Below are positions 3,050 through 60,135 of a stretch of DNA of 64,000 nt, in pieces. Both the position numbers and the translations under genes were made by a program. The notes under the pieces were generated by a model that saw only the letters and a list, made by a program, of their open reading frames with translations, was not told the DNA's origin and made no database searches. Source of the stretch: Longitalea luteola (GTDB lineage: Bacteria; Bacteroidota; Bacteroidia; Chitinophagales; Chitinophagaceae); NCBI RefSeq assembly GCF_017356035.1, contig NZ_JAFIQX010000003.1, positions 620,001-684,000 of the forward strand. Reading direction: 5' to 3'. Position 1 is the stretch's first letter; every line of letters begins with the position of its first letter.

Positions 3050-3164
3050 ATGCCCGATGCTTAAGGCCCGTGATGCCCGCCGCCATCGAATTTCGGGTTT
3101 TTGCGTTCAGCCTTAGGCCTTGGGCATTCAGCGTTTTCGCTTTTGTTCTTATATTCGCATACTT

Positions 3165-4379
3165 ATGGCACAGCAATTATCAAGAGAGTTTTTAACGCAG
3201 GTAGCTAATGAATTCGGTACCCCTGTGTATGTTTACCATGCCGAAAAGATCAAAGAGCAATATGAAAAGCTGCAAACCGCTTTTTCAAAGATCAATGCCC
3301 GTTTTTATTATGCCTGTAAGGCGCTTACCAATATTAATGTTTTAAAGTATGTAAACAGCCTCGGCGCCGGGGTAGATTGTGTGAGCATTTATGAAGTAAA
3401 GCTGGCCCTGAAAGCAGGTTTCGATCCTAAAAACATTCTTTATACACCCAACTGTGTCGACTTCCAGGAAATTGTGGCCGCCAAGGAACTGGGTGTTAAT
3501 ATCAATATTGATAATATCTCCATCCTGGAGCAGTTCGGTAACAAGTTTGGGGGAAGTTATCCTATTTGCATCCGCCTCAACCCGCACATTATGGCCGGTG
3601 GTAATTTCAAGATCTCTACCGGGCACGTAGATAGCAAATTCGGGATCTCCATTCACCAGATCAGGCATATCGAGCGCATTATAAAAAGTGCGAAATTGAA
3701 AGTAACCGGCGTACATATGCATACCGGTAGCGAGATCAAAGATATTGGTGTATTCATGGAAGGACTGGAAGTGATGTTTGAAATAACCAGCCATTTCCCT
3801 GACCTGGAGTTCATTGACCTGGGCAGCGGCTTTAAAGTACCTTACCAGCCCGATGATCCGGAAACAGATGTAAATACGCTGGGCCAGAAAATGGCGGTGG
3901 CCTTTAAGAATTTTGAGAAAGAAAGCGGTAGAAAACTGCAGGTATGGTTCGAACCGGGTAAATACCTGGTAAGCCAGTGCGGTTACTTCGTGGTTAAGAC
4001 CAACGTGGTAAAACAAACTCCGGCTACCGTTTTTGCAGGCGTGAACAGCGGTTTCAACCATCTTATCCGGCCGATGTTCTATGACGCCTATCATCATATC
4101 GAAAATATTTCCAACCCCAACGGCCCTGAAAGGATCTATACGGTTGTAGGTAATATTTGTGAGACCGATACTTTTGCCTGGGACCGTAAACTGCATGAAG
4201 TGCGCGAAGGCGATTACCTGGTGTTCTACAATGCAGGTGCCTATGGATTTGAAATGTCATCCAACTTCAATAGCCGCCTGAAACCGGCCGAAGTACTGGT
4301 GAAAGACGGCAAACCGCACCTCATACGCAAACGCGACGAGTTTGAAGACCTGTTAAAAAATCAGATTGAAGTTTTATAG
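3165..4379 (+). CDS. lysA: Diaminopimelate decarboxylase
   Basis: This PLP-dependent enzyme decarboxylates meso-diaminopimelate to L-lysine in the last step of lysine synthesis. It is a fold-type III decarboxylase: the PLP lysine is K52 in FYYACKALTN, the phosphate/His region is GVHMHTGSEI, the barrel end carries WFEPGKYLV, and the C-terminal beta domain has the substrate Cys motif ICETDTFAWDR and YGFEMSSNFNSRLKP. The ATG at 3165 gives 404 residues, starting MAQQLSREFL. An upstream in-frame TTG at 3120 would add residues encoded by repeat-like DNA and is rejected. It is flanked by terminators on both sides, so it is probably monocistronic. A related amino-acid decarboxylase is conceivable, but the CETDTF motif favours LysA. 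Confidence 0.92.
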   Translation: MAQQLSREFLTQVANEFGTPVYVYHAEKIKEQYEKLQTAFSKINARFYYACKALTNINVLKYVNSLGAGVDCVSIYEVKLALKAGFDPKNILYTPNCVDFQEIVAAKELGVNINIDNISILEQFGNKFGGSYPICIRLNPHIMAGGNFKISTGHVDSKFGISIHQIRHIERIIKSAKLKVTGVHMHTGSEIKDIGVFMEGLEVMFEITSHFPDLEFIDLGSGFKVPYQPDDPETDVNTLGQKMAVAFKNFEKESGRKLQVWFEPGKYLVSQCGYFVVKTNVVKQTPATVFAGVNSGFNHLIRPMFYDAYHHIENISNPNGPERIYTVVGNICETDTFAWDRKLHEVREGDYLVFYNAGAYGFEMSSNFNSRLKPAEVLVKDGKPHLIRKRDEFEDLLKNQIEVL

Positions 4380-4382
4380 AAT

Positions 4383-4414
4383 AATCCCGACGATACCGTC
4401 GGGATTTTATTTTA
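4383..4414 (+). terminator. Rho-independent terminator after lysA
   Basis: The stem AATCCCGACG / CGTCGGGATT encloses an ATAC loop and is followed by TTATTTTA. It starts 4 bp after the lysA stop codon. Confidence 0.9.
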
Positions 4415-4419
4415 TATTC

Positions 4420-4584
4420 ACTTATTCTAAGTTTTAAGTATTAAGTTCTAAGTTTTAAGTTATTCAGTTCATAAGTTATTAAGTTCATGAGTTTGCAATT
4501 AATCGCGAGACTGAATAACTGAACAACTGAATAACTGAACAACTGAATAACTGAACAACTGAATAACTGAACAACTGAATAACT
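4420..4584. repeat. Octamer array, inverted halves (AAGTTATT / CTGAATAA)
   Basis: The right half (4511-4584) is a tandem array of a 16-bp unit built from the octamers CTGAATAA and CTGAACAA, 4.6 copies. The left half (about 4420-4495) has degenerate octamers such as AAGTTATT and CAGTTCAT, which are the reverse complement of the same family; for example GTTATTCAGTT at 4459-4469 pairs with AACTGAATAAC in the right half. The whole could fold as a long imperfect hairpin. The array ends only 5 bp before the next start codon. Confidence 0.9.
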
Positions 4585-4589
4585 ATTCA

Positions 4590-5072
4590 ATGCCAAACAA
4601 ATTCATACAACAACTCAGCAATCCGGTATTATTCAGGTTATACCTTTTCTGGAAGCTGCCTGCCGCTTTTTTTTCGGGTGTGCGCGTCAGGGAGATCGAT
4701 GAACAGCATTGTATAGTGACGGTTCCGTATAAATGGTTCTCGCAAAATCCTTTCCGCTCAACTTATTTTGCGTGCCTGGCGATGGCGGCGGAAATGAGTT
4801 CGGGGTCGCTGGCAATGGCGCATGTATATGGCCGCAAGCCGGCCGTCTCTATGCTGGTAGTGAAGTTTGAGGCCAGTTATTTTAAAAAAGCCACCGGGCG
4901 CACCCGCTTCGAGTGCCGGGATGGAAAATTGTTATCAGGTGCCATCGAGCAGGCCATTGCCACCGGGGAGCCGCAGGTTTGCACCACAACGTCGACCGGC
5001 ATAAACAAACAAGGTGATAAAGTAGCAGAATGTTTGATAACCTGGTCGTTCAAAACGAGGGTTCGTGAATGA
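4590..5072 (+). CDS. DUF4442-type hotdog-fold protein (thioesterase-like)
   Basis: A 160-residue protein resembling the DUF4442/PaaI-like hotdog families, which include acyl-CoA thioesterases, though DUF4442 members lack a proven substrate. The fold is suggested by FSGVRVREIDEQHCIVTVPYKWFSQNPFRSTYF, then the helix AMAAEMSSGSLAMAH (residues 68-82), then beta strands including VSMLVVKFEASYFKKATG and a C-terminal CLITWSFKTR. There is no signal peptide. The start codon directly follows an octamer repeat array, leaving almost no room for a normal promoter or ribosome-binding site. Function is unassigned; an acyl-thioester hydrolase role is only a family-level guess. Confidence 0.8.
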   Translation: MPNKFIQQLSNPVLFRLYLFWKLPAAFFSGVRVREIDEQHCIVTVPYKWFSQNPFRSTYFACLAMAAEMSSGSLAMAHVYGRKPAVSMLVVKFEASYFKKATGRTRFECRDGKLLSGAIEQAIATGEPQVCTTTSTGINKQGDKVAECLITWSFKTRVRE

Positions 5073-7248: not shown

Positions 7249-7316
7249 GTTGAGCGCCTGCCTGCCGGTAGGCAGGTTTTGCGTTGAGCGCCTGCCTGCC
7301 GGTAGGCAGGTTTTGC
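7249..7316. repeat. Two tandem copies of a 34-bp palindromic unit
   Basis: The units 7249-7282 and 7283-7316 are identical. Each contains the near-perfect palindrome CCTGCCTGCCGGTAGGCAGG. They run straight into the GCGTT heptamer array. A related CCTGCC...GGCAGG hairpin beside the same heptamer family is at 26132-26169. Confidence 0.93.
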
Positions 7317-7391
7317 GTTAAGCGTTAAGCGTTCGGCGTTCAGCGTTGAGCGTTGAGCGTTCAGCGTTTTGCGTTTTGCGTTGAGCGTTCC
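7315..7391. repeat. GCGTTNN heptamer array (11 copies)
   Basis: Eleven contiguous 7-bp units all begin GCGTT and vary at the last two positions (AA, AA, CG, CA, GA, GA, CA, TT, TT, GA, CC). Related arrays are at 11715-11756 and 26165-26220. Confidence 0.95.
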
Positions 7392-7394
7392 GCG

Positions 7395-7430
7395 TAAAAA
7401 AAGAAACCGATCCACTTTTGGCAGATCGGT
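7395..7430 (-). terminator. Minus-strand hairpin with T-run
   Basis: On the minus strand ACCGATC pairs with GATCGGT across an 11-nt loop and is followed by TTTCTTTTTTT. It lies about 260 bp beyond the LytTR regulator stop, so it could terminate that operon or a small transcript between 7.4 and 7.7 kb. Confidence 0.6.
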
Positions 7431-8788: not shown

Positions 8789-8866
8789 TGGAAAATAGTT
8801 TATCCATTTTTTCGTTAAATTAGTTGTCCGTAGACAGAACACCTTTCGTTCTAATCCAATAACTCT

Positions 8867-11002
8867 ATGAAGGAGAAAATATTATATCTTGTCTGGTCTA
8901 TTTACAGGGATATAGTGCACACTGGCCTGCATGAGGGTGTTTCCAAAGACTTACGTAAAAGGATCATCCGCTTCAACCAGTTCATACTGCTTGCTCTGCT
9001 GTTGAACTTTTTCTCCGTTTTTTCCTATTTCTATCACAAGCTATATATAAGTGCGTTAGTAAATATAACGGCTGCTTATTTTTTTCTGCTGGCATTTTAT
9101 TTCGGTTCCAAACGAAAGCTCGAGACCGGCCGCATCATTGCAGTGATCAATATAAACCTATACCTGATCGTAATATGTTATATTGAAGGGTTGCGGGCAG
9201 GGGAGTACCTGCTGTATTTTCCCTACTTCGTGGTGCTGACGTTTGTGGTTAGTATCCGCCGCAATTTTAAAGAACTGTTATCGGTATATTCCATCACGGT
9301 CATAGCGTCGTTGTGTTGTGTGAAGATTTGTCCGTACGTAAATAATATCCAGAACATCAACGAAGCCCTGTATACCCAGTTGTACAGCGGCAACCTGGTT
9401 ATTTCGCTGGCCATGACCATCATTTTCTCTTATTCCATTTTACAGGTGAATAAAGACAATGAGGTGGCTATTCTGCAGGAAAAAACCTTTGGGGATACCA
9501 TCTTCAACACCTCGCTCGACGGGGTATTTATTATTTTCAGCCAGTCGAATATTATTGCCAGTTGTAATAAACGGGCGTTGGAACTGTTTGAAGTGAGTGA
9601 GAAACGCGAGATAGAAGGCACCAATATAGAAGTATGGTTCGAAGAGCATCACATTAAACAGTTCAACTCAATAAAAGAAAGCCTGTCGGGCGAATCGCGG
9701 CCCTGGCAGGGTGAGCTTACCCTTACGGCCAAAACTGGCCGCACTTTTTATGGCTTCGTGAGTGTGGTGCCTTTTACGTATAAAGATACCGGCTACACCA
9801 AGATCAGTATCCTGGATGTATCGAATGTGAAGATGGCCGAGTTTGAACTGATGAAAGCCAAGGAAAAAGCAGAATCGGCGGCCAGAACCAAATCGCGTTT
9901 CCTCAGTAATATGAGCCATGAGCTGCGTACGCCGCTGAATGGGATCATTGGCGCCTCGAACCTCTTGCTGCAGGAAGAGCACCTGCCATCACAGGTACAG
10001 CACCTCGATATTCTGAAGTTCTCATCAGAACATATGATGATGCTCATCAATGATATTCTCGACTACAACAAAATGGAAGCCGGGAAAGTGGAGCTGGCGG
10101 ATGTGCCTGTAAATATTAAGGAATTCATGCAGAAGCTGGCTTCCCAGTTCTCGCCCCAGATAAAAGCAAAGGGACTGGAATTTAAAGTGGATATTGATGA
10201 CCGGCTCGACCTGGAATTTTATACCGATGAAACACGATTGAACCAGGTGCTGAGCAACCTGCTGGCCAATGCCCTGAAGTTTACGCACCAGGGCACTATC
10301 ACCATGGCGGTTCGTAAATTGTTCTCCTCAAGCGCTAAATCAACGCTGCAGTTCATCGTGATGGACACCGGCATTGGTATTCCGAAGAACAAGCATAAAG
10401 AGATCTTCGACAGCTTTACCCAGGCAGATGTAAATACAACGCGCAAATATGGTGGAACCGGCCTTGGACTGGCCATCACCAAACGCATTGTCAATATGTT
10501 TAACAGCGACCTCTTACTGGAAAGCGAAGAGAATAAAGGCAGTGCTTTTCACTTTACAGTTGAGTTGAAGATCTGTGAGAACAGAAAGCGCTATATTGAA
10601 GAAGAGAACATCAAACACCTTGATAAACTGGAAGGCATCAGGTTGCTCATTGCAGAAGACAACCCGGTTAACCTTTCCATTGCAAAAAGATTTTTAACCA
10701 AGTGGGGCATACAGGTGAGTGAGGCAACCAACGGCCGTGAAGCGCTGGCCCAGTTCAGGAAAGGACAGTTCGACCTGCTGCTGATTGACCTGGAGATGCC
10801 GGAAATGGATGGCGCCACTGCTTTGAAGGAAATTCGCAAGATCAATAATTCAATACCAGCTGTAGCTTTTACGGCAGCGGTATACGATAATATGCAAGCC
10901 GATCTGTTACAGAAAGGATTTACGGATTTTATACATAAACCTTTCCGGCCCGAAGAATTGCATTCGAAGATCTCTTATTTAGTATCCGCATTACGTGCCT
11001 AG
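8867..11002 (+). CDS. Hybrid sensor histidine kinase/response regulator
   Basis: A 711-residue membrane hybrid kinase. Residues 35-195 hold about six hydrophobic segments with no large periplasmic domain. A PAS-like domain follows (about 205-320). The HisKA domain has FLSNMSHELRTPLNGIIG with phospho-acceptor H351. The ATPase domain has the N box QVLSNLLANALKFTHQG, G1 DTGIGIP and G2 GGTGLGLAITKRIV. The C-terminal receiver (about 592-708) starts LLIAEDNPVN with phospho-acceptor D641 in LLLIDLEMPEMDG and the conserved Lys in FIHKPF. Having a receiver but no HPt domain, it needs a separate HPt partner, supplied by the divergent gene. The signal is unknown; the membrane array suggests an intramembrane or envelope cue. 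Confidence 0.93.
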   Translation: MKEKILYLVWSIYRDIVHTGLHEGVSKDLRKRIIRFNQFILLALLLNFFSVFSYFYHKLYISALVNITAAYFFLLAFYFGSKRKLETGRIIAVININLYLIVICYIEGLRAGEYLLYFPYFVVLTFVVSIRRNFKELLSVYSITVIASLCCVKICPYVNNIQNINEALYTQLYSGNLVISLAMTIIFSYSILQVNKDNEVAILQEKTFGDTIFNTSLDGVFIIFSQSNIIASCNKRALELFEVSEKREIEGTNIEVWFEEHHIKQFNSIKESLSGESRPWQGELTLTAKTGRTFYGFVSVVPFTYKDTGYTKISILDVSNVKMAEFELMKAKEKAESAARTKSRFLSNMSHELRTPLNGIIGASNLLLQEEHLPSQVQHLDILKFSSEHMMMLINDILDYNKMEAGKVELADVPVNIKEFMQKLASQFSPQIKAKGLEFKVDIDDRLDLEFYTDETRLNQVLSNLLANALKFTHQGTITMAVRKLFSSSAKSTLQFIVMDTGIGIPKNKHKEIFDSFTQADVNTTRKYGGTGLGLAITKRIVNMFNSDLLLESEENKGSAFHFTVELKICENRKRYIEEENIKHLDKLEGIRLLIAEDNPVNLSIAKRFLTKWGIQVSEATNGREALAQFRKGQFDLLLIDLEMPEMDGATALKEIRKINNSIPAVAFTAAVYDNMQADLLQKGFTDFIHKPFRPEELHSKISYLVSALRA

Positions 11003-11221
11003 AATGTATTCGTTTATTAAGAGGCCGGGGTCAGAAGCCCGAAGTCAGAAGTTAGAGGAGTCTGTTTCCGGCTTCAGACTTCCGACTTCTGAATCTGGGT
11101 AACCTGAGACTAAAAAGAAGGGAAAGGACAAAAAAGAAAGCATAATATTCGCCAACCTTTGTATCTTGCATGCCTGTTCAATTGTATAGCATAGTTCAGT
11201 ATTAGCCGAAAAAACAAAGCC

Positions 11222-11714: not shown

Positions 11715-11756
11715 GCGTTCAGCGTTCAGCGTTCTGCGTTCAGCGTTCTGCGTTTA
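11715..11756. repeat. GCGTTCA heptamer array (6 copies)
   Basis: Six contiguous heptamers: GCGTTCA, GCGTTCA, GCGTTCT, GCGTTCA, GCGTTCT, GCGTTTA. It is preceded by degenerate TTTTGCC/TTTCCGCC-type sequence. It is the same family as 7315-7391 and 26165-26220. Confidence 0.95.
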
Positions 11757-12508: not shown

Positions 12509-14758
12509 TTAATTGTAGTTCAAATGCAGTTCAACCCTTCTGTTCTTGGCGCGGCCGGCAGGAGTAGTGTTGGGTGCAATTGGTTGTGAATCACCAAAGC
12601 CCTGTACACTGATGCGGCTGTCGGTTATTCCCTTTTTGATCAGGTAATTCTTGACAGCCTGGGCGCGTTTTGCAGAAAGCTTTAAATTATTGGCGGCATT
12701 ACCTACATTATCCGTATGTCCTTCAATGCTGATGACCAGGGAAGGATCGCTTTTCAGCACTTTAACAACGATGTCGAGTTTGGGATAAGAAACCTTTTGA
12801 ATGATATCCTTGCCAGACATGTAATAAATGCTTTTCGCTGCGATGGCCACTTTTTTGGCCACTTCCTGTTTGATCACCGGGCAACCGTTATTCTCCGGTT
12901 TGCCTGGTGTGTGGGGGCATTTGTCGTCTTCGTCGTTCACACCATCGTTGTCGGTATCGGGTACCGGGCAACCATTGTACTTGGCAATACCTGCCACGGT
13001 AGCACATTTATCGTCTTCATCGTTCAGGCCATCGTTATCGGTATCTGGAATGGGGCAACCTTTATATTTAGCGATACCGGCCACATCAACGCAACTGTCG
13101 TTTTTGTCGGCGATACCATCTTTGTCTTTATCAGGGCAGCCAGCAAGGGTAACTTCACCGGCAATTTCAGGGCACTCATCTTTTTCATCAACAATACCGT
13201 CGTTGTCTTTATCGTGGGTGATCTGAACTTCTTTGATTATTTCCACTTTCTTTTCAACGGTATCCACTTTCGTTTCAACTTTTGTCTCAACTTTAGTTTC
13301 AACAACAGTAACCTCTTTGATAACTTCTTTGGGTTCCTCTCTTACAGGTGCCGGTTTGGTCTTATACCGTTTAGTTTTAACGCGCTGGTAAATCGACATG
13401 GTAACACCGAGGTGAACATCGGCAGAGGTTACATTCTTATTCGAGAACATGTTCGACAGGATAGAGCCTGAACCAACGAAGAACATACCTGCGCGTAAAC
13501 CGGCTCCTACCGCCATTTTCTTATTCAGCGTGTTATAATAGAAGGGGGCATACAGGCTGAACCATTTCTTCTCTAAACGCGGTGTAACGGTGAATGAAGT
13601 TGCGTATTGGGCTGTGGTCTGGTTCTTATCCCGGTTAACGAGGTTAACGATGGCGCCGGCATTAATGAACAGTCTTTTCCAAATGTGGTAATCCGCATCG
13701 ATCCGCAGGGTTGTGGGCAGTTTTACCTTCATGGTCGACTCATGGGCAGTGGGAGTAATGATGCCCATATTTTCCAACCTGGTGAAATATTCTTCGATCG
13801 TTTCACCTTCCTGTTTGTCCAGGTCATCGGTAGTACGGCCAGAAGCATCCAGGCGATAGCTGTCACCATGTTCTGAATTCTTATATTTTACCGAGCCTAT
13901 ATCATTTACCGAGGCGTTTAACCGCAGTTTATAAGGAAGCGGATCGTTCAGTAACCAGTTGTTTTTTTCTGGTCTCCATTCATATGAAAATCCGAGGTCG
14001 AGCCCCCAGCCATAATTATTGTCCAGGTTGTCCATCACATCGCCGAAATCATCGTCCACGTTATCGAGGTTCGATGAGTAACGGGCATTAAGATCACCCT
14101 GCAGCTGGTTAATGAAATCGTTCTTGTCGATGTTCACATTTAATCTGTTGGAGTATACAGAAGCGGCGGCTATGCCCACTACATATTTACCGGTGATACC
14201 CATTTTCAGCAGGTGTTCGGGCGTGCTGTAGATAACCCGGCCATAGGTTAAACCGGCTTCGGCAAAAGCATGGGCTTTTACCTGCAGCTTTTCTTCCTGG
14301 ATGGGGGTATTATACAAAGCTGAATCGCTTCCGAAAAAGCGGAATGTGTTATCGCTGAGGTTGAAAGTATTTACCACCGAGCGCATACGGGTGTACAGAC
14401 CCATACCGCTTTTTTTGCCTGATGTGAACATGAACGAGGGGCCCATGATATCGGTATTCAGCCAAAGGTTCTTTTTGTCGGTATTAGCCGATTTAAAGTA
14501 ATCCTTGTCCTCTGTCAGATCAGAAAAATCGAATTTTTTGAATTTGTCATTCTTAAGCTCGTAAGCGTTGTTTCCCGCAAGGGCGCTTAGGCTGAAGAAA
14601 TTGATGTTCACTTTGTATCTGCTGGCGGCAACAGAAGCCGGGTTCTGCAACATGCCGTGAACACCGGAATAATTGTCGTAGGTATAACCTGTAAATTGTT
14701 GAGATAAGCCAAACAAGGGTACGCAACTTATAAGGCCTAGCGCTAGGCTTTTTTTCAT
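12509..14758 (-). CDS. DUF5723/OmpA-family outer-membrane protein with TSP3 repeats
   Basis: A 749-residue envelope protein. The signal peptide is MKKSLALGLISCVPLFGLSQ. Residues 20-465 form a DUF5723-type region, probably a beta-barrel of the PorV/PorQ kind, starting GYTYDNYSGVHGMLQNPAS. A linker near 475-520 has repeated KVETKV/EVTVVE units. Four calcium-binding thrombospondin type 3 repeats follow, each with a D-x-DxDG(I/L/V)xDxxDxC core. The C-terminal OmpA/MotB-like domain has ISIEGHTDNVGNAANN and NLKLSAKRAQAVKNYL, ending GRAKNRRVELHLNYN, and is expected to bind peptidoglycan. The likely role is anchoring the outer membrane to the wall. Confidence 0.92.
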   Translation of the reverse strand: MKKSLALGLISCVPLFGLSQQFTGYTYDNYSGVHGMLQNPASVAASRYKVNINFFSLSALAGNNAYELKNDKFKKFDFSDLTEDKDYFKSANTDKKNLWLNTDIMGPSFMFTSGKKSGMGLYTRMRSVVNTFNLSDNTFRFFGSDSALYNTPIQEEKLQVKAHAFAEAGLTYGRVIYSTPEHLLKMGITGKYVVGIAAASVYSNRLNVNIDKNDFINQLQGDLNARYSSNLDNVDDDFGDVMDNLDNNYGWGLDLGFSYEWRPEKNNWLLNDPLPYKLRLNASVNDIGSVKYKNSEHGDSYRLDASGRTTDDLDKQEGETIEEYFTRLENMGIITPTAHESTMKVKLPTTLRIDADYHIWKRLFINAGAIVNLVNRDKNQTTAQYATSFTVTPRLEKKWFSLYAPFYYNTLNKKMAVGAGLRAGMFFVGSGSILSNMFSNKNVTSADVHLGVTMSIYQRVKTKRYKTKPAPVREEPKEVIKEVTVVETKVETKVETKVDTVEKKVEIIKEVQITHDKDNDGIVDEKDECPEIAGEVTLAGCPDKDKDGIADKNDSCVDVAGIAKYKGCPIPDTDNDGLNDEDDKCATVAGIAKYNGCPVPDTDNDGVNDEDDKCPHTPGKPENNGCPVIKQEVAKKVAIAAKSIYYMSGKDIIQKVSYPKLDIVVKVLKSDPSLVISIEGHTDNVGNAANNLKLSAKRAQAVKNYLIKKGITDSRISVQGFGDSQPIAPNTTPAGRAKNRRVELHLNYN

Positions 14759-15364
14759 GACTTGGGGTTTGTTGGAGTTAAGTGGTTAAATTATAATGTT
14801 ATTGCTACAATTCAAAGCGCCGCAAGGTAAATTAAATTGTATGTATTATGAAATGTAATGATTTATACATGATATAAATTCACTTATGGTCTGTCAGATA
14901 AGGAATTATGTACATATTACCTGGCGGCAATCGAACAGAGGTGGCGTGAAGCCGTTAACTAACGCGGAAAAGGCCCTGCAATTGTGTGGCAGGGGAAGGT
15001 GCAGTGTACAGGGAATGGGTATGCGAAAGCAAAAAAAAATGTACCTTTAAGTTTCCATCCATTAATCTAACCGCTGAAGTAACGCAACCGTGTCAGCCGG
15101 GCGGCTGCCGGTAAATAACCCTTTTAAAAAACAAATCCGTATGAAAACCTTTACAAATGGCTCCTCCCGGAGTTATCTGAAGCTGTTAGTCAAGATCATT
15201 ATCTGCACATTATGGCTGCTCTGTATTGTATCGGCGGCTACAGCGAAGTGAGACTCAATTAGCAAATGTGCAAATCAAATTAGCAGATTAGCAAATGTGC
15301 AAATGTGCGAATCAAATGTGCAAATGCCCGTTCATTGAGCCTTGCGCCTTCAGCCTTGCGCCTT
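14759..15364. other. 606-bp intergenic region with one small membrane-type frame
   Basis: AT-rich sequence upstream of the OmpA gene probably contains its promoter. Around 14980-15020 there are G-rich hairpin-prone stretches. A box TACCTTTA at about 15042-15049 precedes a G/C-rich stem-forming stretch and a 36-codon frame at 15141. From 15255 to 15335 there is a degenerate octamer array of the GCAAATGT type, then GCCTTGC-type heptamers up to the AraC stop codon. Confidence 0.5.
15141..15251 (+). CDS. Possible 36-residue single-span membrane peptide
   Basis: ATG at 15141 opens a 36-codon frame with a polar, positively charged N-terminus (MKTFTNGSSRSYLKLLVK) and then a hydrophobic stretch IIICTLWLLCIVSAATA, ending at TGA 15251. 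This is the shape of a signal peptide or a small membrane protein. It has an upstream TACCTTTA box. It could also be the remnant of a truncated secreted-protein gene. No family is recognised. Confidence 0.25.
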   Translation: MKTFTNGSSRSYLKLLVKIIICTLWLLCIVSAATAK

Positions 15365-16243: not shown

Positions 16244-16596
16244 GAGCAGGGTTTTGATCTGTTTAACCAATATTACCAATTTTTTCTCAAAGAGTGATGC
16301 AGGAGGTTAATATCGGTTAAGAAGTGATTAATTGTAGAAAACACATCAGTGGCAATAGGCAATAGACCAATAGACAAAACACAACAGGTAAAAAGGCATA
16401 AAGGCAAAAGGGGAAATGAGCAATAAAGATCAGGTGGCAAAAAACAGTTATCAGGTCAGATTTCGTAAGCTATTCACCATTCACCATTCACCATTCACCA
16501 TTCACCATTCACCATGTTAATTTTGGTAACAAACTGATTAAAACAAGCTATCCTATACTAACTGCTTCATAATACCTTTATTAAAAATTAATACGA
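16244..16596. other. 353-bp divergent control region, AraC/DapA-family
   Basis: The left part (about 16340-16420) holds degenerate CAATAGAC-type and AAAGGCA-type heptamers. A clean ATTCACC array is at 16472-16513. The right part is AT-rich, with a TACCTTTA box near 16570 about 20 bp before the aldolase start codon. This region should contain the AraC operator, but no clear pair of direct repeats is visible. Confidence 0.5.
16472..16513. repeat. ATTCACC heptamer array (6 perfect copies)
   Basis: Six exact tandem copies of ATTCACC. It is the least degenerate heptamer array in the window, suggesting recent expansion. Confidence 0.97.
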
Positions 16597-17508: not shown

Positions 17509-17701
17509 AAATGTATCTGATTGATGAGTTATTGAATGAATACCTATTTGGCGCGAAGACAGTAGTGAGGCCAGAAGTTGCGTTTTTGCCGTTTCACTTC
17601 TGCCGTTGGCCGTTTAACGATCGCCGACTTGTCCGCCGGAGCCTTGGCGTAGTCGGATTGCCGATTGCCGATAGTCTTGCCGCTGCATTTCATTAGCTAA
17701 T

Positions 17702-17781
17702 CAGCACATCAGCTAATCAGCACATCAGCTAATCAGCACATCAGCTAATTAGCACATCAGCTAATCAGCACATCAGCAAAT
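17702..17781. repeat. 16-bp tandem array (5 copies) of two octamers
   Basis: Five contiguous copies of CAGCACATCAGCTAAT with single changes in the last two. Each unit consists of two related octamers, CAGCACAT and CAGCTAAT. It ends 23 bp before the DUF885 start codon. There are no spacers of unrelated sequence, so it is not a CRISPR. Confidence 0.95.
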
Positions 17782-17804
17782 TAGCCCATTGACCAACCAC
17801 GCTT

Positions 17805-19517
17805 ATGAGAAAGAAACATATATTAAACCTTGTTGCCTGCCTGTTTACCACCATCGCATGCCTGTCGCAGCAACCGCTTTACCAGCAAACCAGTGAAGTT
17901 AACAACCTGATGGTTCAGTACGATGCCGATCGCGGCAGCCTGAACCGTTTTTATTTTGTAGAAAATGCGCCCGAACGCCGCGAGCGAATGGTTACCGTGG
18001 TGACCCATTATTTGAAGCAGCTACAGCAATTGAATTATGACAAACTGCCCACCGGCAGCAGGGTAGATTATATCCTGTTTAAAAGGAACCTCGATGAACA
18101 GCTGCGACTGCTCGACGTGGAGAAAAAAGAGAATGCCCGGCTGACCAGCTGGTTTCCGTTTGCCGCCGGTATTTATGAAATAGAAAAGATCCGCCGTCGC
18201 GGCGCTCAGCCCGATGCCCGATTATGGGCCACCAGCATGCGAACCATCACTGCCAATATCAACAGCCTGTCAAATTCCCTGGCGAAAGACACCACCATAA
18301 CTATTAACCTCATCCGCCGTGCCCAGGGAACGGTTCGCGGACTGCGGGCTGCGCTGAAATCGGTGAACGAGTTTTATGCAGGATACGATCCTGCTTATAC
18401 CTGGTGGCTGCCTGAACCTTTCAAACAGCTCGACACAGCCCTGGCCGCTTATGCACAGCTTTGGCAACAAAAAGGAAAAGCAGCCCCCGGTGGTAAAGAC
18501 GATGGCAGCGGTATCATCGGTTATCCTATTGGAAAAGAAGAGCTCATCCGTCAATTACAGTTGGAATTTATACCCTACACCCCGGAAGAACTGATCGGCA
18601 TTGCCAACAAGGAATTTGCCTGGTGCGATGCGGAAATGTTGAAAGCATCGCAGGAGATGGGGTTTGGCAAAGACTGGAAAAAAGCGCTTGAAAAAGTAAA
18701 GAATACGTATGTGCCGCCAGGTAAACAACCCGAAACGATTATGAAACTGTACAATGAATCGGTTGCTATTCTGAAAAAGCATGACCTCATTACCATTCCG
18801 CCGGTGGCGGAAGAAACCTGGCGTATGATCATGATGACGCCCGAGCGGCAACTGGTAAATCCCTTTTTTACGGGTGGTGAAGTGTTGAGTATTTCCTATC
18901 CCACCAATACGATGGAAGATGATGATAAAATGATGAGTATGCGCGGCAACAATCCGCATTTCTCCCGGGCCACTGTGCATCATGAACTGATTGCCGGCCA
19001 TCACCTGCAGGGTTTTATGAACAACCGGTATAAAGCATACCGCAATTTCAATACACCATTCTGGATCGAAGGCTGGGCCCTGTATTGGGAAATGATCCTG
19101 TGGGACCAGCATTTTCCTCAATCACCCGAAGATCGTATAGGCATGTTGTTCTGGCGGATGCACCGCTGTGCCCGCATCATTTTCTCCCTGAACTATCATT
19201 TGGGAAAATGGACGCCCCAGCAATGTATCGACTTCCTGGTTGACCGTGTAGGTCATGAACGGGCTAATGCCGAAGGCGAAGTGCGCCGCTCTTTTGTTGG
19301 CTCCTACAGTCCCTTGTACCAGCTGGCCTATATGATCGGTGGCCTGCAATTTTATGCATTGAAAAAAGACCTGGTCGATAGCGGTAAAATGACACTTAAA
19401 CAATACCACGATGCGGTGATGCATGAAAATGCCATGCCGGTGTCAATGGTAAGGGCTATAGTTACGGATCAGCCGCTGCCCGTAGATTATTCCGCGGAAT
19501 GGAAATTTTATAAATAA
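17805..19517 (+). CDS. DUF885-family secreted metallopeptidase-like protein
   Basis: A 570-residue protein with a signal peptide (MRKKHILNLVACLFTTIACLSQ). The C-terminal half carries the zinc motif HHELIAGHHLQGF (near residues 391-403), and FWIEGWALYWEMILW supplies the downstream glutamates, as in DUF885 proteins, which resemble M32-type carboxypeptidases. The long helical N-terminal half is also typical. It probably acts in the periplasm on peptides. It follows the DapA-family gene across a 296-bp gap full of repeats, so co-transcription is uncertain. Family assignment is firm; substrate unknown. Confidence 0.88.
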   Translation: MRKKHILNLVACLFTTIACLSQQPLYQQTSEVNNLMVQYDADRGSLNRFYFVENAPERRERMVTVVTHYLKQLQQLNYDKLPTGSRVDYILFKRNLDEQLRLLDVEKKENARLTSWFPFAAGIYEIEKIRRRGAQPDARLWATSMRTITANINSLSNSLAKDTTITINLIRRAQGTVRGLRAALKSVNEFYAGYDPAYTWWLPEPFKQLDTALAAYAQLWQQKGKAAPGGKDDGSGIIGYPIGKEELIRQLQLEFIPYTPEELIGIANKEFAWCDAEMLKASQEMGFGKDWKKALEKVKNTYVPPGKQPETIMKLYNESVAILKKHDLITIPPVAEETWRMIMMTPERQLVNPFFTGGEVLSISYPTNTMEDDDKMMSMRGNNPHFSRATVHHELIAGHHLQGFMNNRYKAYRNFNTPFWIEGWALYWEMILWDQHFPQSPEDRIGMLFWRMHRCARIIFSLNYHLGKWTPQQCIDFLVDRVGHERANAEGEVRRSFVGSYSPLYQLAYMIGGLQFYALKKDLVDSGKMTLKQYHDAVMHENAMPVSMVRAIVTDQPLPVDYSAEWKFYK

Positions 19518-19518
19518 A

Positions 19519-19595
19519 GGCTCAAGGCTGAAGGCTGAAAGCTGAAGGCTGAAGGCTGAAGGCTGAAGGCAGAAGGCTGAAGGCTGAAGGCTGAA
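19519..19595. repeat. GGCTGAA heptamer array (11 copies)
   Basis: Eleven contiguous heptamers, eight of them exactly GGCTGAA, with variants GGCTCAA, AGCTGAA and GGCAGAA. It begins one base after the DUF885 stop codon. Confidence 0.96.
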
Positions 19596-19639
19596 AGCGG
19601 AGTGTCGTGCCGGCTGATAGCCCTGCAACCTGTATTCCC

Positions 19640-19760
19640 GGCAACCGGCAACCGGCAACCGGCAACCGGCAACCGGCAACCGGTAACCGGTAACTGGTAA
19701 CCGGTAACTGGTAACCGGTAACTTGTATTCCCGGTAACCGGTAACTGGTAACCGGTAACT
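19640..19760. repeat. GGCAACC/GGTAACY heptamer array (16 copies in two blocks)
   Basis: Six GGCAACC units are followed by six GGTAACC/GGTAACT units in strict alternation, then TGTATTCCC, then four more alternating units. TGTATTCCC also precedes the first block, so a compound unit has itself been duplicated. The GGTAACC-GGTAACT pairing forms a 14-bp higher-order repeat. TGAACTT-type heptamers follow up to the GH127 start codon. Confidence 0.96.
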
Positions 19761-19807
19761 ATAAACTTTGAACTTTAAACTATGAACTTTAAACTATTGA
19801 ACCGCAA

Positions 19808-22168: not shown

Positions 22169-22200
22169 ATCTGGATATTAAATAACAAGCGATCACCAAG

Positions 22201-22227
22201 GCTCTACTGTGCAGTAGAGCTTTTTTG
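22201..22227 (+). terminator. Rho-independent terminator after GH127
   Basis: GCTCTACT / AGTAGAGC with a GTGC loop, followed by TTTTTT. It lies 32 bp after the GH127 stop. Confidence 0.92.
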
Positions 22228-22845
22228 TTATGTTAATGAAGACCAGCTGCGGAGCATTTTGTGGTTTTTTTGCACGGCTTAACTATTAACCATGTTAGGG
22301 CAAAAATATAAACGTCTTACAATTAAGATTTTAGCGAGCCTTGCCACAGATTACTATCCGGGCATGGGATTTTATTTCTTCCAACTAAATGCGCAAAGCA
22401 GGTCAATAAGTGAAGTGTGAAAACAACGGTAAGTGTAAATTAGTAAGGCGTTCATGGGATAAAAACCAACTTTTGATCGTTTAAGACCATCATTGCAAAA
22501 TAGGTGATAATATCTTTAGCAGGTTGATGGGATAACACAAATACCTCCGGCAACGTTGCCGGCAAAAAATGGCAGGGTGCTACAGTTGATATGAAACAAA
22601 TGCAGCCAGAGACGGGTTGTTGCAGCAAGGGATTTGATAATATACGTGTTCAATGTCCCTGCATGTAAAAAATATCACTTTAGTTCTTATCTTCGACGCC
22701 TGTTTAAACAATAGATTTCGGTTAATGGCAAACGGAATATTATTATCGTACTTCACACAATAAACTAATATATAGTACGGTTAATGGCCTGTTGGTTTTG
22801 ATATATAGTAAAAGCATCTTTTTAAACTACTTATTTTTTTATTGA
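22228..22845. other. 618-bp intergenic region upstream of the SET-domain gene
   Basis: AT-rich, without heptamer arrays, unlike most gaps here. A perfect 16-bp palindrome CCGGCAACGTTGCCGG is at 22547-22562, followed by CAAAAAAT. A 25-codon Cys-rich frame starts at 22591 (MKQMQPETGCCSKGF..., ending CPCM at 22668); it may be chance. The last 100 bp are rich in TATA-like runs but lack a convincing TAnnTTTG box. Confidence 0.45.
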
Positions 22846-26220: not shown

Positions 26221-26225
26221 GCGTA

Positions 26226-37578: not shown

Positions 37579-37744
37579 GATCAATAGGCAAATGACAACA
37601 GGCAATAGACAATGGGCAGTAGACAATAGACAAAGGACAAGGGACTAAATAATAAGCAGGATGAAATAGCAGGGACGCACACAAATAAGCATTGCCAATT
37701 GCTAATTGCCAATTGCGATTTCCACAAAGCATAAATAATGACAA

Positions 37745-39436: not shown

Positions 39437-39447
39437 GAGATTTTGAG

Positions 39448-39517
39448 ATTTCTGATTTCGGGATTTAAATCTCAAAATCTCAAAATCTCAAAATCTCAAA
39501 ATCTCGAAATCAGAAAT
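39448..39517. repeat. CTCAAAAT octamer array within an inverted repeat
   Basis: ATTTCTGATTTCG at 39448-39460 is the exact reverse complement of CGAAATCAGAAAT at 39505-39517. Between them are about five CTCAAAAT octamers. It begins about 10 bp after the stop codon of the preceding gene and can fold into a hairpin. A related CGATTTCGAGAT/ATTTCTCG stretch occurs at 59400-59462. Confidence 0.93.
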
Positions 39518-39568
39518 AGATCTACTCTGCTATGAAAACGGATCCTATAATCAACTAATTACTATCAG

Positions 39569-41016: not shown

Positions 41017-41117
41017 GAGTTTGTAAGTTATTAAGTTAATCAGTTCTTGAGTTTTTCAGTTAAACTCGTTACTGGTTTTCAACTCATGAATTTACGAACT
41101 GAATAACTTACAAACTC
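41017..41117. repeat. Perfect 16-bp inverted repeat from the octamer family
   Basis: GAGTTTGTAAGTTATT at 41017-41032 pairs exactly with AATAACTTACAAACTC at 41102-41117. Inner parts CAGTTC/GAACTG and GAGTT/AACTC also pair. The octamers are those found at 4420-4584. Upstream (40975-41015) are AGTTGATA octamers and downstream (41127-41160) TGAACTT heptamers, filling the whole gap between two genes. Confidence 0.93.
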
Positions 41118-41189
41118 AATAACTAATGAACTGTGAACTTTAAACCGTGAACTTTAAACTGTTTTCTGCCTTCTGCCCATTCACGAGCT

Positions 41190-45210: not shown

Positions 45211-45338
45211 AACATAGTTTATTTATGGTAAGAAGTTTCACGTGCCGGGTACCGGTTACCGGTTGCCGGTCAACTAAAACCGTGTCACGGATAACTGTGC
45301 TCAGGGGCATTTCGCGATTGGCAATTGTCCCTGCCCTG

Positions 45339-46070
45339 ATGACCCGGCCGAACCGGAATTGTAGATTGTCGGCAGCCGTTTCACGTTTCACCTTTGCCGT
45401 TTGCCGATCAACGGTACTCGTTTTAAGTACGTTGGCATCTTTTGCACAGGAAGGCTCAAAAAAGATCGACAGCAACTACAACAATGCCTACTACCAGGGT
45501 CGCATGGAATTGTTCAATACATTGACCCCGCCGAAAAATGCCATTGTATTTTTAGGGAACAGTATTAGCGAACGGGGCGCCTGGAGCGAGTTACTGCCGG
45601 GGCAACCCGTTATGAACCGGGGCATTGGTGGCGATAATACGTTCGGCGTACTGGCCAGACTGGAAGGAGTGGTAAAAGCAAAACCAAAGAAGATCTTTCT
45701 GTTGATCGGCATTAATGACCTCAGCCGCGGATTGCCAAAAGAAGTGATCATTAATAACTATCATCGCATCATCAGGTATCTTACCGCTTTTACGCCGAAA
45801 ACAAAAATATATCTCCAGAGTGTATTGCCCCTGAATGAGCCAATGACAACTCCGGCCTACCTGAAAAATAAGAAAGACAGCATCCTGCAATTGAATAGAG
45901 GTATAAAACAGGTGGCGGAACAATATCATTTACCGTATATCAACCTGCATGATATCTTTGCCGATGCCAATGGTGATCTGAAGAAAGAGCTTACCATGGA
46001 TGGCATTCATCTTAGACCTGCGGCTTATGTGTTGTGGGTGGATTTTCTTAAGAAGAAGAACTATTTATAA
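45339..46070 (+). CDS. Secreted SGNH/GDSL esterase, second of a tandem pair
   Basis: A 243-residue paralogue of the preceding gene, with the same blocks: IVFLGNSISERG, NRGIGGDNT, FLLIGINDLSRG and DGIHLRPAAY. The frame is open upstream to 45150, but that part overlaps the previous gene and GGTTACCGG-type repeat DNA. ATG 45339 is chosen because it leaves a workable signal peptide (MTRPNRNCRLSAAV..., hydrophobic FTFAVCRSTVLVLSTLASFA, then QEG). The N-region is unusually Arg/Cys-rich and looks derived from intergenic repeat sequence. ATG 45225 is an alternative. Likely an O-acetyl esterase with a shifted specificity. Confidence 0.82.
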   Translation: MTRPNRNCRLSAAVSRFTFAVCRSTVLVLSTLASFAQEGSKKIDSNYNNAYYQGRMELFNTLTPPKNAIVFLGNSISERGAWSELLPGQPVMNRGIGGDNTFGVLARLEGVVKAKPKKIFLLIGINDLSRGLPKEVIINNYHRIIRYLTAFTPKTKIYLQSVLPLNEPMTTPAYLKNKKDSILQLNRGIKQVAEQYHLPYINLHDIFADANGDLKKELTMDGIHLRPAAYVLWVDFLKKKNYL

Positions 46071-47097: not shown

Positions 47098-48033
47098 ATG
47101 AAGATAACGGGAACTTTTATTGATGAGATCAGTCACGACATCCCTCATCAGAACTGGGGCGCCGCAGAATGGCGTCGTGATTTTGAATACATGAAAGCCA
47201 TTGGTATCGATACCGTCATTTTGATCCGCAGTGGTTACCGCCGGTTCATTACCTATCCTTCGGCTTATTTGATAAAAGAATACGGTTGCTACCAGCCGCC
47301 GGTTGACCTGGTGGAGCTGTTCCTGCAATTGTCTGACGAACTGGGTATGAACTTCTACTTTGGTTTATACGACAGCGGTAAGTACTGGGACACCGGTAAT
47401 ATGCAGCATGAAATTGACAGCAACCGTTTTGTGATTGATGAAGTATGGAAAAAATACGGACAGTATAAAAGTTTTAAAGGCTGGTACCTGAGTATGGAGA
47501 TCAGCCGTAAAACAAAAGGGGCTACCGAAGCTTTTAAAACGTTGGGGTTGCAATGCAAACAGGCAAGTAATGGATTGCCCACACTTATTTCGCCCTGGAT
47601 AGATGGGAAGAAAGCGGTCATGGCCGCGTCTGCTTCACTGACCAAAGAAGAAGCCGTCTCTCTAAAAGAACATGAGCAGGAGTGGAGCGAGATCTTTGCG
47701 GGTGTACAGGGCGCCGTGGATGCAGTCGCCTTCCAGGATGGCCACATCGATTACCATGAGCTGGATGATTTCTTCGCCATCAACAAGAAAATGGCCGACC
47801 GTTTCGGGCTCCAATGCTGGACGAATGCCGAATCTTTCGACCGTGACATGCCGATAAAATTTCTGCCCATTAAATTCGAAAAGCTGCGCCTGAAGCTGGA
47901 AGCAGCAAAGCGGGCCGGTTATGATAAGGCCATTACATTTGAGTTTTCTCATTTTATGAGTCCGCAGTCCGCGTATCTGCAGGCGGGACATTTGTACAAT
48001 CGATATCGGGAGTATATCTCGGTGACTGGTTGA
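47098..48033 (+). CDS. DUF4434 protein (glycosidase-like TIM barrel)
   Basis: A 311-residue protein of the DUF4434 family. It starts MKITGTFIDEISHDIPHQNW, followed by MKAIGIDTVILIRSGYRRFITYPSAYL, GMNFYFGLYDSGKYW and FKGWYLSMEISRK, then GVQGAVDAVAFQDGHIDYHELDDFF. The TIM-barrel pattern with conserved Glu (in YLSMEIS) and Asp (in AFQDGHID) resembles glycoside hydrolases. No signal peptide is visible, so it may be cytoplasmic. The 9-bp spacing from the hydrolase gene indicates co-transcription. Activity is unproven for the family. Confidence 0.85.
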   Translation: MKITGTFIDEISHDIPHQNWGAAEWRRDFEYMKAIGIDTVILIRSGYRRFITYPSAYLIKEYGCYQPPVDLVELFLQLSDELGMNFYFGLYDSGKYWDTGNMQHEIDSNRFVIDEVWKKYGQYKSFKGWYLSMEISRKTKGATEAFKTLGLQCKQASNGLPTLISPWIDGKKAVMAASASLTKEEAVSLKEHEQEWSEIFAGVQGAVDAVAFQDGHIDYHELDDFFAINKKMADRFGLQCWTNAESFDRDMPIKFLPIKFEKLRLKLEAAKRAGYDKAITFEFSHFMSPQSAYLQAGHLYNRYREYISVTG

Positions 48034-48109
48034 CCAGTTGACCCGTTAACTGGTTAACTGGTTGATAAGGTTGAAACAGCTGATATCCAAAAACGGGAGC
48101 GGATAAACC

Positions 48110-48165
48110 GGTAACTGGCAACCGGTAACTGGTAACCGGTGACCGGCAACCGGTGACTGGTAACC
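48110..48165. repeat. GGTAACY/GGCAACC heptamer array (8 copies)
   Basis: Eight contiguous heptamers: GGTAACT, GGCAACC, GGTAACT, GGTAACC, GGTGACC, GGCAACC, GGTGACT, GGTAACC. It is preceded at 48030-48070 by GGTTGACC/GTTAACTG octamers. The same family is at 19640-19760, about 28 kb away. Confidence 0.95.
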
Positions 48166-48215
48166 GGTATCGCTTTCAAAAGTAATCAGGCCAATCCTTT
48201 TAACAATAACGTTCT

Positions 48216-58488: not shown

Positions 58489-58625
58489 ATGTTGAATGTT
58501 GTGCTGGGAATGAGTAGCAAATGACAGGTTACCAGTTGCCTGCAGTTTTAAGGTTCAAGGTCCGGAAACCGGTATCCGGTAACTGGCAAACGGGTATATC
58601 TTTTGCCTATTTTTGATTAAAAAAT

Positions 58626-59396
58626 ATGGTCTTTCCCATTGGAGATGACAACCGGGACAGGAAAAGTATACCTGTCGTCAATTACCTCCTTATAGCGTTG
58701 AATATTTTTGCATATGTGTACTGGCAGGGGCTGGGCCTGAACGACCAGGTTACCTTTGCCTATTCCACAGTGCCAGCCGAAATATTAACCGGTCATGATA
58801 TTGTAACCGATTCTAAGATTGCGGTGAACCCGTATGATGGGGAACGGTACAAGATACCGGGATTGGAGGTAACCAATATTCCGGTTTTCTTTACATTGAT
58901 CACTTCCATGTTCATGCATGGCGGCCTTGCCCACCTGGCTGGTAACATGCTTTACCTGTGGATCTTCGGTGATAATATTGAAGACGCATTAGGCCATCTG
59001 AAATATCTTTTATTTTATTTATTGTGCGGTGTGCTCGCGGGTTTAAGCCATGTGTTCAGCACCGCGATCTTCGGACAAAATCTGTTGATACCCAGCCTGG
59101 GCGCTTCGGGCGCCATATCGGGCATGTTAGGCGCTTACCTGCGATTGTTTCCCGGCAAAGGCATCCACCTCTGGATCTTCTTTATCATTCTTACGGTGCC
59201 GGCATTTATTGCGGTGGGTATCTGGTTCGCTTTCCAGGTTATGAATGGTTTAGGTGCATTGGGCGGCGAAGAAGCAGGTGGTGTAGCCTATGCGGCTCAC
59301 ATTGGCGGGTTTATAGCCGGATTGCTACTGATAGGCACATTTGCCAAAGATTTTCTGGCCCGGCGAAGAGCGGCTTCCAGGAGGGGCTGGATCTGA
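58626..59396 (+). CDS. Rhomboid-family intramembrane serine protease
   Basis: A 256-residue membrane protein with about six hydrophobic segments. The catalytic Ser161 is in SLGASGAISGMLGAYL and His225 in YAAHIGGFIAGLLL. The substrate-gate loop after FFTLITSMFMHGGLAHLAGNMLYLWIFGDNIED has the conserved HxxxN pattern. Rhomboids cleave transmembrane helices of substrate proteins within the membrane. A TATTTTTG box (58608-58615) ends only 10 bp before the ATG, which would give a very short leader. Substrate unknown. Confidence 0.93.
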   Translation: MVFPIGDDNRDRKSIPVVNYLLIALNIFAYVYWQGLGLNDQVTFAYSTVPAEILTGHDIVTDSKIAVNPYDGERYKIPGLEVTNIPVFFTLITSMFMHGGLAHLAGNMLYLWIFGDNIEDALGHLKYLLFYLLCGVLAGLSHVFSTAIFGQNLLIPSLGASGAISGMLGAYLRLFPGKGIHLWIFFIILTVPAFIAVGIWFAFQVMNGLGALGGEEAGGVAYAAHIGGFIAGLLLIGTFAKDFLARRRAASRRGWI

Positions 59397-59466
59397 TTTC
59401 CAGATTTCTCGATTTCGAGATATTCGGATTTATGAAATCTCAAATCCAAAAATCAAAATTTGCGAT

Positions 59467-60135
59467 TTACTTTTCAAATACCACCAGATCCGGCTGTGCA
59501 CCCAGTTTTTCCAGAATAGCATTAATATCTGTGATCATTTTGTCAGGACCGCACACATAAAAATGTTTGTTGAAATCGGTTACGTGTGAACGCAGGAACT
59601 CGATATTGATGATGCCAAACTCATAACCCGTTTTACGCTCGCGGCTTAAAATGTATTGTGCGTTGCTGCCCATCATGCCTGTCAATTCGTCTTCATAAAT
59701 AACATCAGCGGCTGTTTTGTTCGAAAAGAACAGCGTGTTGCCAGCGAGCTGGTTGTCGCGATGCAATTGCCGGAGGATCGCAATAAACGGCGTGATGCCG
59801 GCGCCACCGGCAATAAAATAACCGGGGCCTTTGTATTCAATGGCGCCCCACACATCATGCAGGATGATCTCATCGCCTGCCACCAGTTGATGAAGCTTCT
59901 GAGTAACACCTTTGTGATCGGCATATTGCTTTATCGTAAGTTCAAGTGTAGGCTCATGGGCTAATGATGTAAAAGTAAAAGGCCGCCTTTCTTCCTGCCA
60001 GCCCGGTTGGTTGATGGCTATTTCTGTCGCCTGTCCCGGAACAAAGTTATAACCGGTTGGTTTTTCAACGCGAAAGCTTTTAACATCGTGTGTTACCTGT
60101 TGAATGGCAATAATTTTAACAATATGCGATTCCAT
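59467..60135 (-). CDS. FAD-binding ferredoxin/flavodoxin-reductase-like oxidoreductase
   Basis: A 222-residue FNR-family flavoprotein. The FAD domain has RPFTFTS (FAD binding) and FVPGQATEIAIN; the NAD(P)H domain has FIAGGAGITPFIAILRQL and FYVCGPDKMITDINAILEKLG. There is no 2Fe-2S domain, so electrons must be passed to a separate acceptor. ATG 60135 (MESHIVKIIAI) is chosen; an upstream TTG at 60165 is unlikely. Likely roles are reduction of flavodoxin/ferredoxin or of a small molecule. It is encoded alone between two convergent or divergent plus-strand genes. Confidence 0.9.
   Translation of the reverse strand: MESHIVKIIAIQQVTHDVKSFRVEKPTGYNFVPGQATEIAINQPGWQEERRPFTFTSLAHEPTLELTIKQYADHKGVTQKLHQLVAGDEIILHDVWGAIEYKGPGYFIAGGAGITPFIAILRQLHRDNQLAGNTLFFSNKTAADVIYEDELTGMMGSNAQYILSRERKTGYEFGIINIEFLRSHVTDFNKHFYVCGPDKMITDINAILEKLGAQPDLVVFEK

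Follow-up and report, generated by a model that had tools for sequence, protein, structure and literature searches.

Many of the gaps between genes in the stretch of the Longitalea luteola genome analyzed here (64,000 nucleotides of contig NZ_JAFIQX010000003.1, positions 620,001 to 684,000; hereafter the window) carry tandem arrays of 7- or 8-bp units, and we see an about even chance that in large part these arrays form the arms, built of iterated units, of small non-coding fold-back (hairpin) elements that spread via single-stranded DNA. Such an element would consist of a left array, a loop, and a right array approximating the reverse complement of the left; one family of them, found across the genus, has a conserved core loop. 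The proposal draws on what is directly observed in L. luteola and its relatives: arrays and cores with their junctions, one composite in two gaps, a fast turnover between species, and a strand tied to replication direction in two relatives. Reports of heptamer repeats go back decades, with no agreement on where they come from or what they do; because some can now be tied to a conserved-core element, a replication-strand rule, and a candidate enzyme, the question becomes testable. Overall, the arrays are a real phenomenon that probably amounts to more than slippage and is partly explained.

The first-pass annotation of the window had described such arrays in at least fifteen gaps, almost only between genes, and this observation is confirmed. 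Tandem Repeats Finder (TRF) recovered the 7- and 8-bp arrays where they had been described, and a period scan of the window (score of at least 10) yielded 27 arrays of period 7 or 8, none of them mainly coding, with 16 of the 37 gaps of 30 bp or more holding arrays. The weak point is a GGTAACC array at 5.1 kb, which lies below the threshold of the scan. Together with 40 further stretches of 20 kb, the window forms a sample of 864 kb (11.8% of the 7.30-Mb genome, which is in 43 contigs), in which genes were predicted by our own codon-usage caller and 81% of the sequence is coding. The predicted enrichment is present in this sample: periods 5, 6, 7, 8, 9, 10, and 11 give 0, 3, 114, 69, 3, 0, and 5 arrays, and periods 2 to 6, 9, and 10 give 0 to 3 each. 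Beyond 7 and 8, their multiples 14, 16, 21, 24, and 28 appear, other periods up to 13 give 0 to 5, and a dinucleotide-shuffled control gives none at any period. Placement is almost exclusively intergenic (intergenic, coding, and mixed: 107, 3, and 4 for period 7; 67, 1, and 1 for period 8). By extrapolation, the genome holds about 1,500 arrays.

In 73 loci from other Bacteroidota (919 kb), periods 7 and 8 are again the most frequent of periods 4 to 10, with 20 and 6 arrays, respectively, at a lower density; periods 4, 5, 6, 9, and 10 have 0 or 1 and period 11 has 5. The preference could be a property of the polymerase. Among long simple repeats, those with 7-nt units are the most frequent kind in many bacteria, and the polymerase has been proposed to have a footprint of 7 nt (Mrazek 2007, as summarized in PMC4679880). 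Both points favor in-place slippage in steps of 7 to 8 nt, with no mobile element and with shared families arising by convergence or ectopic recombination. The same can be said of perfect species-specific arrays beside diverged cores, which resemble recent local expansion, and of the gap at 4380-4781, where the congener G002 has a single ACTGAATAAC unit and the window nine. We consider this explanation possible but doubtful, as it leaves unexplained a 50-nt core lying between arrays at many sites, the replication-tied strand of that core, and a composite found in two gaps of the congener G004, all described below.

The arrays are unevenly distributed relative to genes. Of the 513 sampled gaps of at least 30 bp, 74 are convergent, 348 tandem, and 91 divergent, and arrays are present in 28, 89, and 14 of these, respectively. 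Adjacency to stop codons, remarked on earlier for the window, is a genuine excess, with 46 of 129 tandem-gap arrays beginning within 20 nt of the upstream stop codon (expected, 25 ± 4); start codons show no excess in tandem gaps (21 vs. 24 expected). Hairpin elements would persist where they are least harmful, that is, after stop codons, in convergent gaps, and away from promoters. The excess after stops and the convergent-to-divergent difference would also suit functional 3' ends, in which bidirectional terminators or mRNA-protecting hairpins are kept under selection with compensating changes in the arms, and by eye some gaps do keep arm complementarity while their units change. Nevertheless, we regard such a function as quite unlikely: the presence of arrays varies among relatives at gaps 39437-39568 and 22169-22845, the AA- or TT-strand of the arrays shows no preference relative to transcription (59 vs. 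64, with 6 tied), and a separate terminator-like stem, identified by eye at 4386-4409, adjoins an array. The idea of Rho sites, with a pyrimidine-C (YC) every 7 to 8 nt, was rejected on inspection of the units, several families having no YC on either strand.

The recurrence of families at separate loci, also claimed at first pass, extends well beyond the window. At a looser threshold, 232 arrays fall into repeated types, among them 36 of an ATAATGTG octamer type, 30 of TTACCGG, and 16 of CCATTCA; GCGTTNNGCGTTNNGCGTT has 568 overlapping matches genome-wide vs. 9 for its reversed control, and the pattern AACYGG is present in 4 of 296 genomes of the phylum. In pooled families, variation is confined mostly to certain positions of the unit, for example, GCGTT followed by two variable bases.

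Orthologous gaps reveal how fast the arrays turn over. The window genes at ~15-48 kb are syntenic with the congeners G002, G004, and G005, and among 15 gaps compared across the four species, arrays are present in all four at 4, in some at 6, and in none at 5. Where several species have arrays, their families often differ. The octamer array ATCAGCAC/ATCAGCTA at 17692-17785 (period scan; all features are given on the forward, +, strand), for instance, is replaced by other families in the relatives' orthologous gap. Gap 16271-16596 holds a left arm of GGCAATA heptamers (16351-16377; TRF, gap comparison) and a right arm of 6.3 copies of ATTCACC (16472-16515; TRF, gap comparison, period scan), and by eye L. 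luteola, G005, and G004 each carry different inverted-pair families there. At 39437-39568, left-arm GAGATTTT/GAGATTTC octamers (39437-39466; TRF, gap comparison) and right-arm AAATCTCA octamers (39467-39511) occupy a gap that in three relatives measures 17-35 nt and has no array. Some array ends agree across species, such as AGTTGAC units after the stop codon in gap 30486-30769; the octamer array AGTTGACC lies at the stop codon here (30481-30509; period scan), with the same family in G005. The conserved gaps 29097-29273 and 32621-32768 lack arrays in all four species, and 8789-8914 in three. In G004, the gaps orthologous to 16271-16596 and 17509-17804 share a composite of ~250 nt, made up of (GGCAGAA)n, a 50-nt core, and TTTGCCG/TCTGCCG units. 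The suggestion made at first pass, that slippage does not suffice and arrays also move from one locus to another, is supported in part by the same composite standing in two neighboring gaps of one relative and by the many sites there of a piece of its core.

Neighboring arrays are often inverted pairs around a loop, a feature that is new here. Among 64 pairs of same-period neighbors in the same gap, 32 are closer in the inverted orientation, 17 in the direct, and 15 are tied; an inverted consensus distance of at most 2 is found in 55% of them vs. 19% of random pairs, and a direct distance of at most 2 in 39% vs. 17%. A looser scan gave 44 inverted pairs, 14 of which have loops of 44-56 nt, and arms swapped in from other gaps fold worse in 39 of 61 pairs (p = 0.004). 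Slippage together with mispairing within and between arms may rewrite the units. Arms of short units could pair in many registers, which would permit fast change of length and unit while the two arms stay alike.

The core of the G004 composite is a conserved loop of ~50 nt, GGCGCAAGAT...TCGCGAG, of the form AATTTYNGGCGGCGCAAGAT-N16-18-ATTCGCGAGC. A 22-nt piece of it occurs at 34 sites in G004 (up to 3 mismatches) vs. 0-4 in nine other genomes. A search of 10 genomes with the pattern GGCGCNNNATN{14,24}TCGCGAG gave 28 copies, spread over 7 of them, and its reversed control gave 1; aligned, the copies have a mean column identity of 73%, the 14 invariant columns being the pattern's own fixed bases and therefore invariant by construction. 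An array adjoins the core edge in 25 of the 28 copies (both edges in 12), compared with 14 of 410 random positions, and the left unit beside the core varies by species (GGCAATC in 4 of 6 copies in G002, GGTCAAT in 5 of 7 in G001). The 28 copies show no gene-strand bias (9 between plus-strand genes, 9 between minus-strand genes, 8 convergent, 2 divergent), and Rfam returned seven matches for 10 of these loci, all under the gathering score.

A sequence-only model built from the 28 copies was used to score the 150 best candidates of a first screen in each genome, and its counts are lower bounds. The core is present in all nine genomes of the genus searched, with at least 22 copies in L. luteola, 71 in G004, 49 in G002, 46 in G006, 19 in G001, 19 in G005 (where the pattern had given none), 13 in G009, 9 in G003, and 7 in G007; among the best 150 candidates in each of 14 genomes of other genera, there is no core but one marginal match. 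In the sampled gaps of L. luteola, TCGCGA has 10 occurrences in the 31 kb next to arrays and a single one in 101 kb of array-free gaps. In the window, only this end of the core is seen, as TCGCGAG at 4503-4509, flanked by two inverted arrays: a left arm of period 7/8 and TAAGTT type (4425-4493; TRF, period scan) and a right arm of ACTGAATA/ACTGAACA octamers (4510-4584; TRF, period scan). The 16-nt loop between them, TGCAATTAATCGCGAG (4494-4509), ends in the motif that closes the core elsewhere, and GCAATTAATCGCGAG of this loop is found again at L011 19631. A second candidate loop in L. luteola was set aside, having only two copies, 1.5 kb apart. So was an all-vs-all BLAST of its gaps, in which 49 of 2032 matches had at least 20 nt outside arrays and the 25 inspected were largely low-complexity sequence, palindromes, or local copies.

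The strand of the core follows replication in two relatives. In the complete genome of G005 (N. koreensis), the core lies on the plus strand at 0.08-3.14 Mb, on the minus strand at 3.50-7.55 Mb (with one exception), and on the plus strand again from 7.85 Mb. GC skew, taken at 20 samples, reverses its sign within these same two intervals; a single positive sample interrupts the negative stretch. Core strand and skew agree for 16 of 17 copies (p = 3e-4), the two copies in the switch zones being left out. In G004 (N. soli), they agree for 47 of 54 (p = 2e-8), these being the copies, out of 71 scored, on the four contigs with skew samples; the switch in both falls between 1.1 and 1.5 Mb on contig 1. 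Across six congeners, core neighbors 5-400 kb apart share a strand in 46 cases vs. 10 that do not. Positive GC skew marks the leading strand, which places the core on the lagging-strand template. This template is also where IS608 and ISDra2 act (as described in PMC6006769). The replication-tied strand hints at copying via single-stranded DNA at the replication fork: a hairpin extruded on the lagging-strand template might be cut out and then joined to single-stranded DNA at another site, as for IS608 and ISDra2.

A strand that follows replication would also be expected of a polar chromosome-processing signal, similar to KOPS or Chi, with selection setting the strand and arrays gathering around it. 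Known polar signals are short and dense. The core, with only 7-71 copies scored per genome, is ~50 nt long, variable inside, and nearly always edged by arrays, and we consider this explanation highly unlikely.

Returning to mobile hairpins, an orphan Y1 transposase is a candidate enzyme for the elements of this genus and would form with them a pair similar to repetitive extragenic palindromic (REP) sequences and their RAYT transposases; judged from sequence, the proposal is a tentative one, more doubtful than not. Profile searches gave one Y1_Tnp (PF01797) match in L. luteola and one strong match in each of eight congeners. The strong gene is syntenic, 87-94% identical to that of L. luteola, and has a mean dN/dS of 0.10. 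Its protein, 142 aa from the chosen start, carries the motifs HMH and YIEKQEEHH, and the closest solved structures are ISDra2 TnpA and IS608 TnpA. TnpA_Y1 subclass 1.2 is characterized in PMC6006769 by Y---Q--HH, a length of ~148 aa, low copy number, and occurrence in Cyanobacteria and Bacteroidetes, and its entry for REP in the table there is "no". The present protein has Y---Q--HH and DHMH (Met where the published table has I or V), and its motifs and length fit this subclass.

The gap 5' of the Y1 gene contains two arrays in seven of nine species, one in G001, and none in G009, and an element adjoins the gene in eight of the nine (seven at the stricter score of 12). In G002, the loop upstream of the gene is a full core; by chance, this would have a probability near 1% (49 scored copies, ~5,700 gaps, scaled). 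By eye, the loop of the Y1-adjacent element (L209 and its orthologues) runs in one direction in L. luteola, G001, G006, and perhaps G003 and in the opposite direction in G002, G004, and G005. In G011, of another genus, the Y1 gene occupies the same position and encodes Phe instead of the catalytic Tyr; there is no adjacent element and no core among the best 150 candidates of this genome. In a search for subclass 1.2-like genes across the phylum, 166 of 395 genomes match alignment A2; the flanks of the best 29 such loci outside the genus hold no arrays. Plasmids gave two weak tblastn matches. Several congeners (G002-G009), L. luteola not being one of them, encode a second Y1-like protein of ~204 aa with a weak PF01797 match.

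A broader version, in which the 7- and 8-bp arrays of Cyanobacteria and Bacteroidetes would be built and dispersed by orphan Y1 enzymes of subclass 1.2, appears unlikely to us. The enzyme would then belong to an array-building relative of the REP system, each lagging-strand round adding or swapping units of 7-8 nt. If the link to the enzyme were true, an HUH protein class that has no substrate would gain one.

Several results weigh against mobile hairpins or against the enzyme assigned to them. The core model has no match in the window, and with at least 22 cores in L. luteola vs. ~1,500 extrapolated arrays, most of its arrays are linked to the core only through their form. Its strand bias is weak, with 13 of 18 copies agreeing with skew (of 22 scored, 1 was set aside and 3 had no skew data) and neighbors sharing a strand in 7 cases vs. 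6. When the right arm is flipped in the 61 pairs with a span of up to 420, the folding energy falls in 30 and rises in 30, a null result that we think arises because many neighbors are pieces of one array; hence, pairing belongs to a part of the arrays rather than to all. As for the enzyme, seven congeners have one or two weak PF01797 matches beside the strong one, so that Y1 genes are not strictly single there. Arrays present in all species at 4 of 15 gaps are not rare, and the array beside the Y1 gene may therefore be a matter of chance. Outside the genus, G289 retains the Tyr at 64% identity, but no core is present among its best 150 candidates, and none of 35 loci with the Y---Q--HH signature has a 7/8 array within 400 bp. 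G018, also of another genus, does have arrays, but its only PF01797 matches are one broken by stops and a weak one elsewhere. In that genome, we note 130 matches to the GCGTT pattern, the stop-broken Y1 match lying at C1:1715410-1715755.

Compared with known systems, the elements resemble REP, BIME, and REPIN sequences with their RAYT (TnpA_REP) in having dispersed intergenic palindromic copies, inverted pairs, species-specific sequence, and a vertically inherited Y1 gene adjoined by an element. Unlike in these, the arms are 7-/8-bp tandem arrays, and the Y1 protein has the Y---Q motif rather than the class 2 motif ending in NP. The REP feature GT[AG]G is absent from the hairpin foot in eight Y1-adjacent elements (where it occurs at all, in G004 and G006, it lies within an arm), and the protein scores 23.1 bits with NF047646 (cut-off 80) and 54.8 with NF033573 (IS200; cut-off 55). 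The elements are thus REP-like in their supposed working and outside the REP family by two tested features. From IS200/IS605 elements such as IS608 and ISDra2, which share a Y1 HUH enzyme of nearest fold, hairpins, and lagging-strand template targeting (as described in PMC6006769), they differ in that the Y1 gene is syntenic and unmultiplied, with one PF01797 match in L. luteola, and the element copies are gene-free; the cores of G005 and G004 have the lagging-strand orientation, the bias being weak in L. luteola (13 of 18). With subclass 1.2, the protein shares Y---Q--HH, whereas in this one genus an element adjoins the gene and the table in PMC6006769 denies REP to the subclass.

The parallel drawn earlier with cyanobacterial heptamers holds in form, but the arrays here are more than free-standing tandem repeats: many serve as arms in inverted pairs, and some of those pairs enclose a conserved core. 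Short tandemly repeated repetitive (STRR) sequences and related heptamers, including TAACTGA and GGGNATC, are likewise degenerate tandem heptamers between genes, compared here by form, and unlike in them, octamers are frequent in L. luteola. Cyanobacterial heptamers lie near stop codons or starts and are strain-specific, TAACTGA also being found in five Bacteroidetes; we found no core, strand rule, or enzyme in the excerpted accounts (PMC4679880, PMC4692102). Searches of the open-access literature yielded no description of the present elements. Porphyromonas gingivalis has a miniature inverted-repeat transposable element with a minisatellite, presumably of the BrickBuilt type. By description, it is a palindromic Bacteroidota element containing tandem repeats (PMC4596501), a likeness to those reported here.

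The remaining arrays of the window include three more probable arm pairs. Heptamers of GTCAGAA type (11030-11056; TRF, pair scan) face the inverted CTTCCGACTTCTGA (11066-11092; pair scan, period scan). Left-arm CAATAGA heptamers (37596-37645; gap comparison, period scan) precede ATTGCCA heptamers (37691-37716; period scan), whose consensus is equally close direct or inverted. Octamers of AAGTTATT type (41018-41061; gap comparison, period scan) are followed by right-arm AACTGAAT octamers passing into TGAACTT heptamers (41092-41162; TRF). Both TRF and the period scan detect heptamer arrays of GCGTTNN (7315-7395), GCGTTCA (11715-11754), AAGGCTG (19517-19601, beginning at a stop codon), CCGGCAA/CCGGTAA (19638-19722), CCGGTAA changing to AACTTTA units in a single register (19731-19795), GCGTTCA/GCGTTCT (26160-26224), and AACCGGT/AACTGGT (48106-48169). 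The period scan adds heptamers of ACTTTGA type (27811-27855), GCCTTTT (30646-30679), TTGCCGG/TTACCGG (45242-45270), and CGTTTCA/CGTTTGC (45377-45406), and octamers of CAAATTAG/CAAATGTG (15276-15312) and GTTGACCA/GTTAACTG (48023-48063, at a stop codon).

Other repeats were also seen. A palindromic array of period 11 surrounds TTCGCAAATTTGCGAAG at 27602-27687; apart from 7 and 8, no period up to 13 is as frequent in the sample as 11, which has 5 intergenic cases. At 7249-7324, there are two 34-bp repeats that contain the palindrome CCTGCCTGCCGGTAGGCAGG, and similar CAGGCAGG palindromes in L016 and L045 suggest perhaps a separate dispersed palindrome. An 87-bp tandem repeat (12918-13084) falls within the minus-strand gene 12509-14758. 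At L042:588-1041 and L040:16106-16309, octamer blocks of ~35 bp alternate with a 14-nt spacer in steps of ~49 bp, a higher-order arrangement that is superficially CRISPR-like, and at L040:9268-9760, a 198-bp unit consisting of inverted heptamer arrays (ATGGTTT/AAACCAT) and a 124-nt spacer is itself repeated in tandem.

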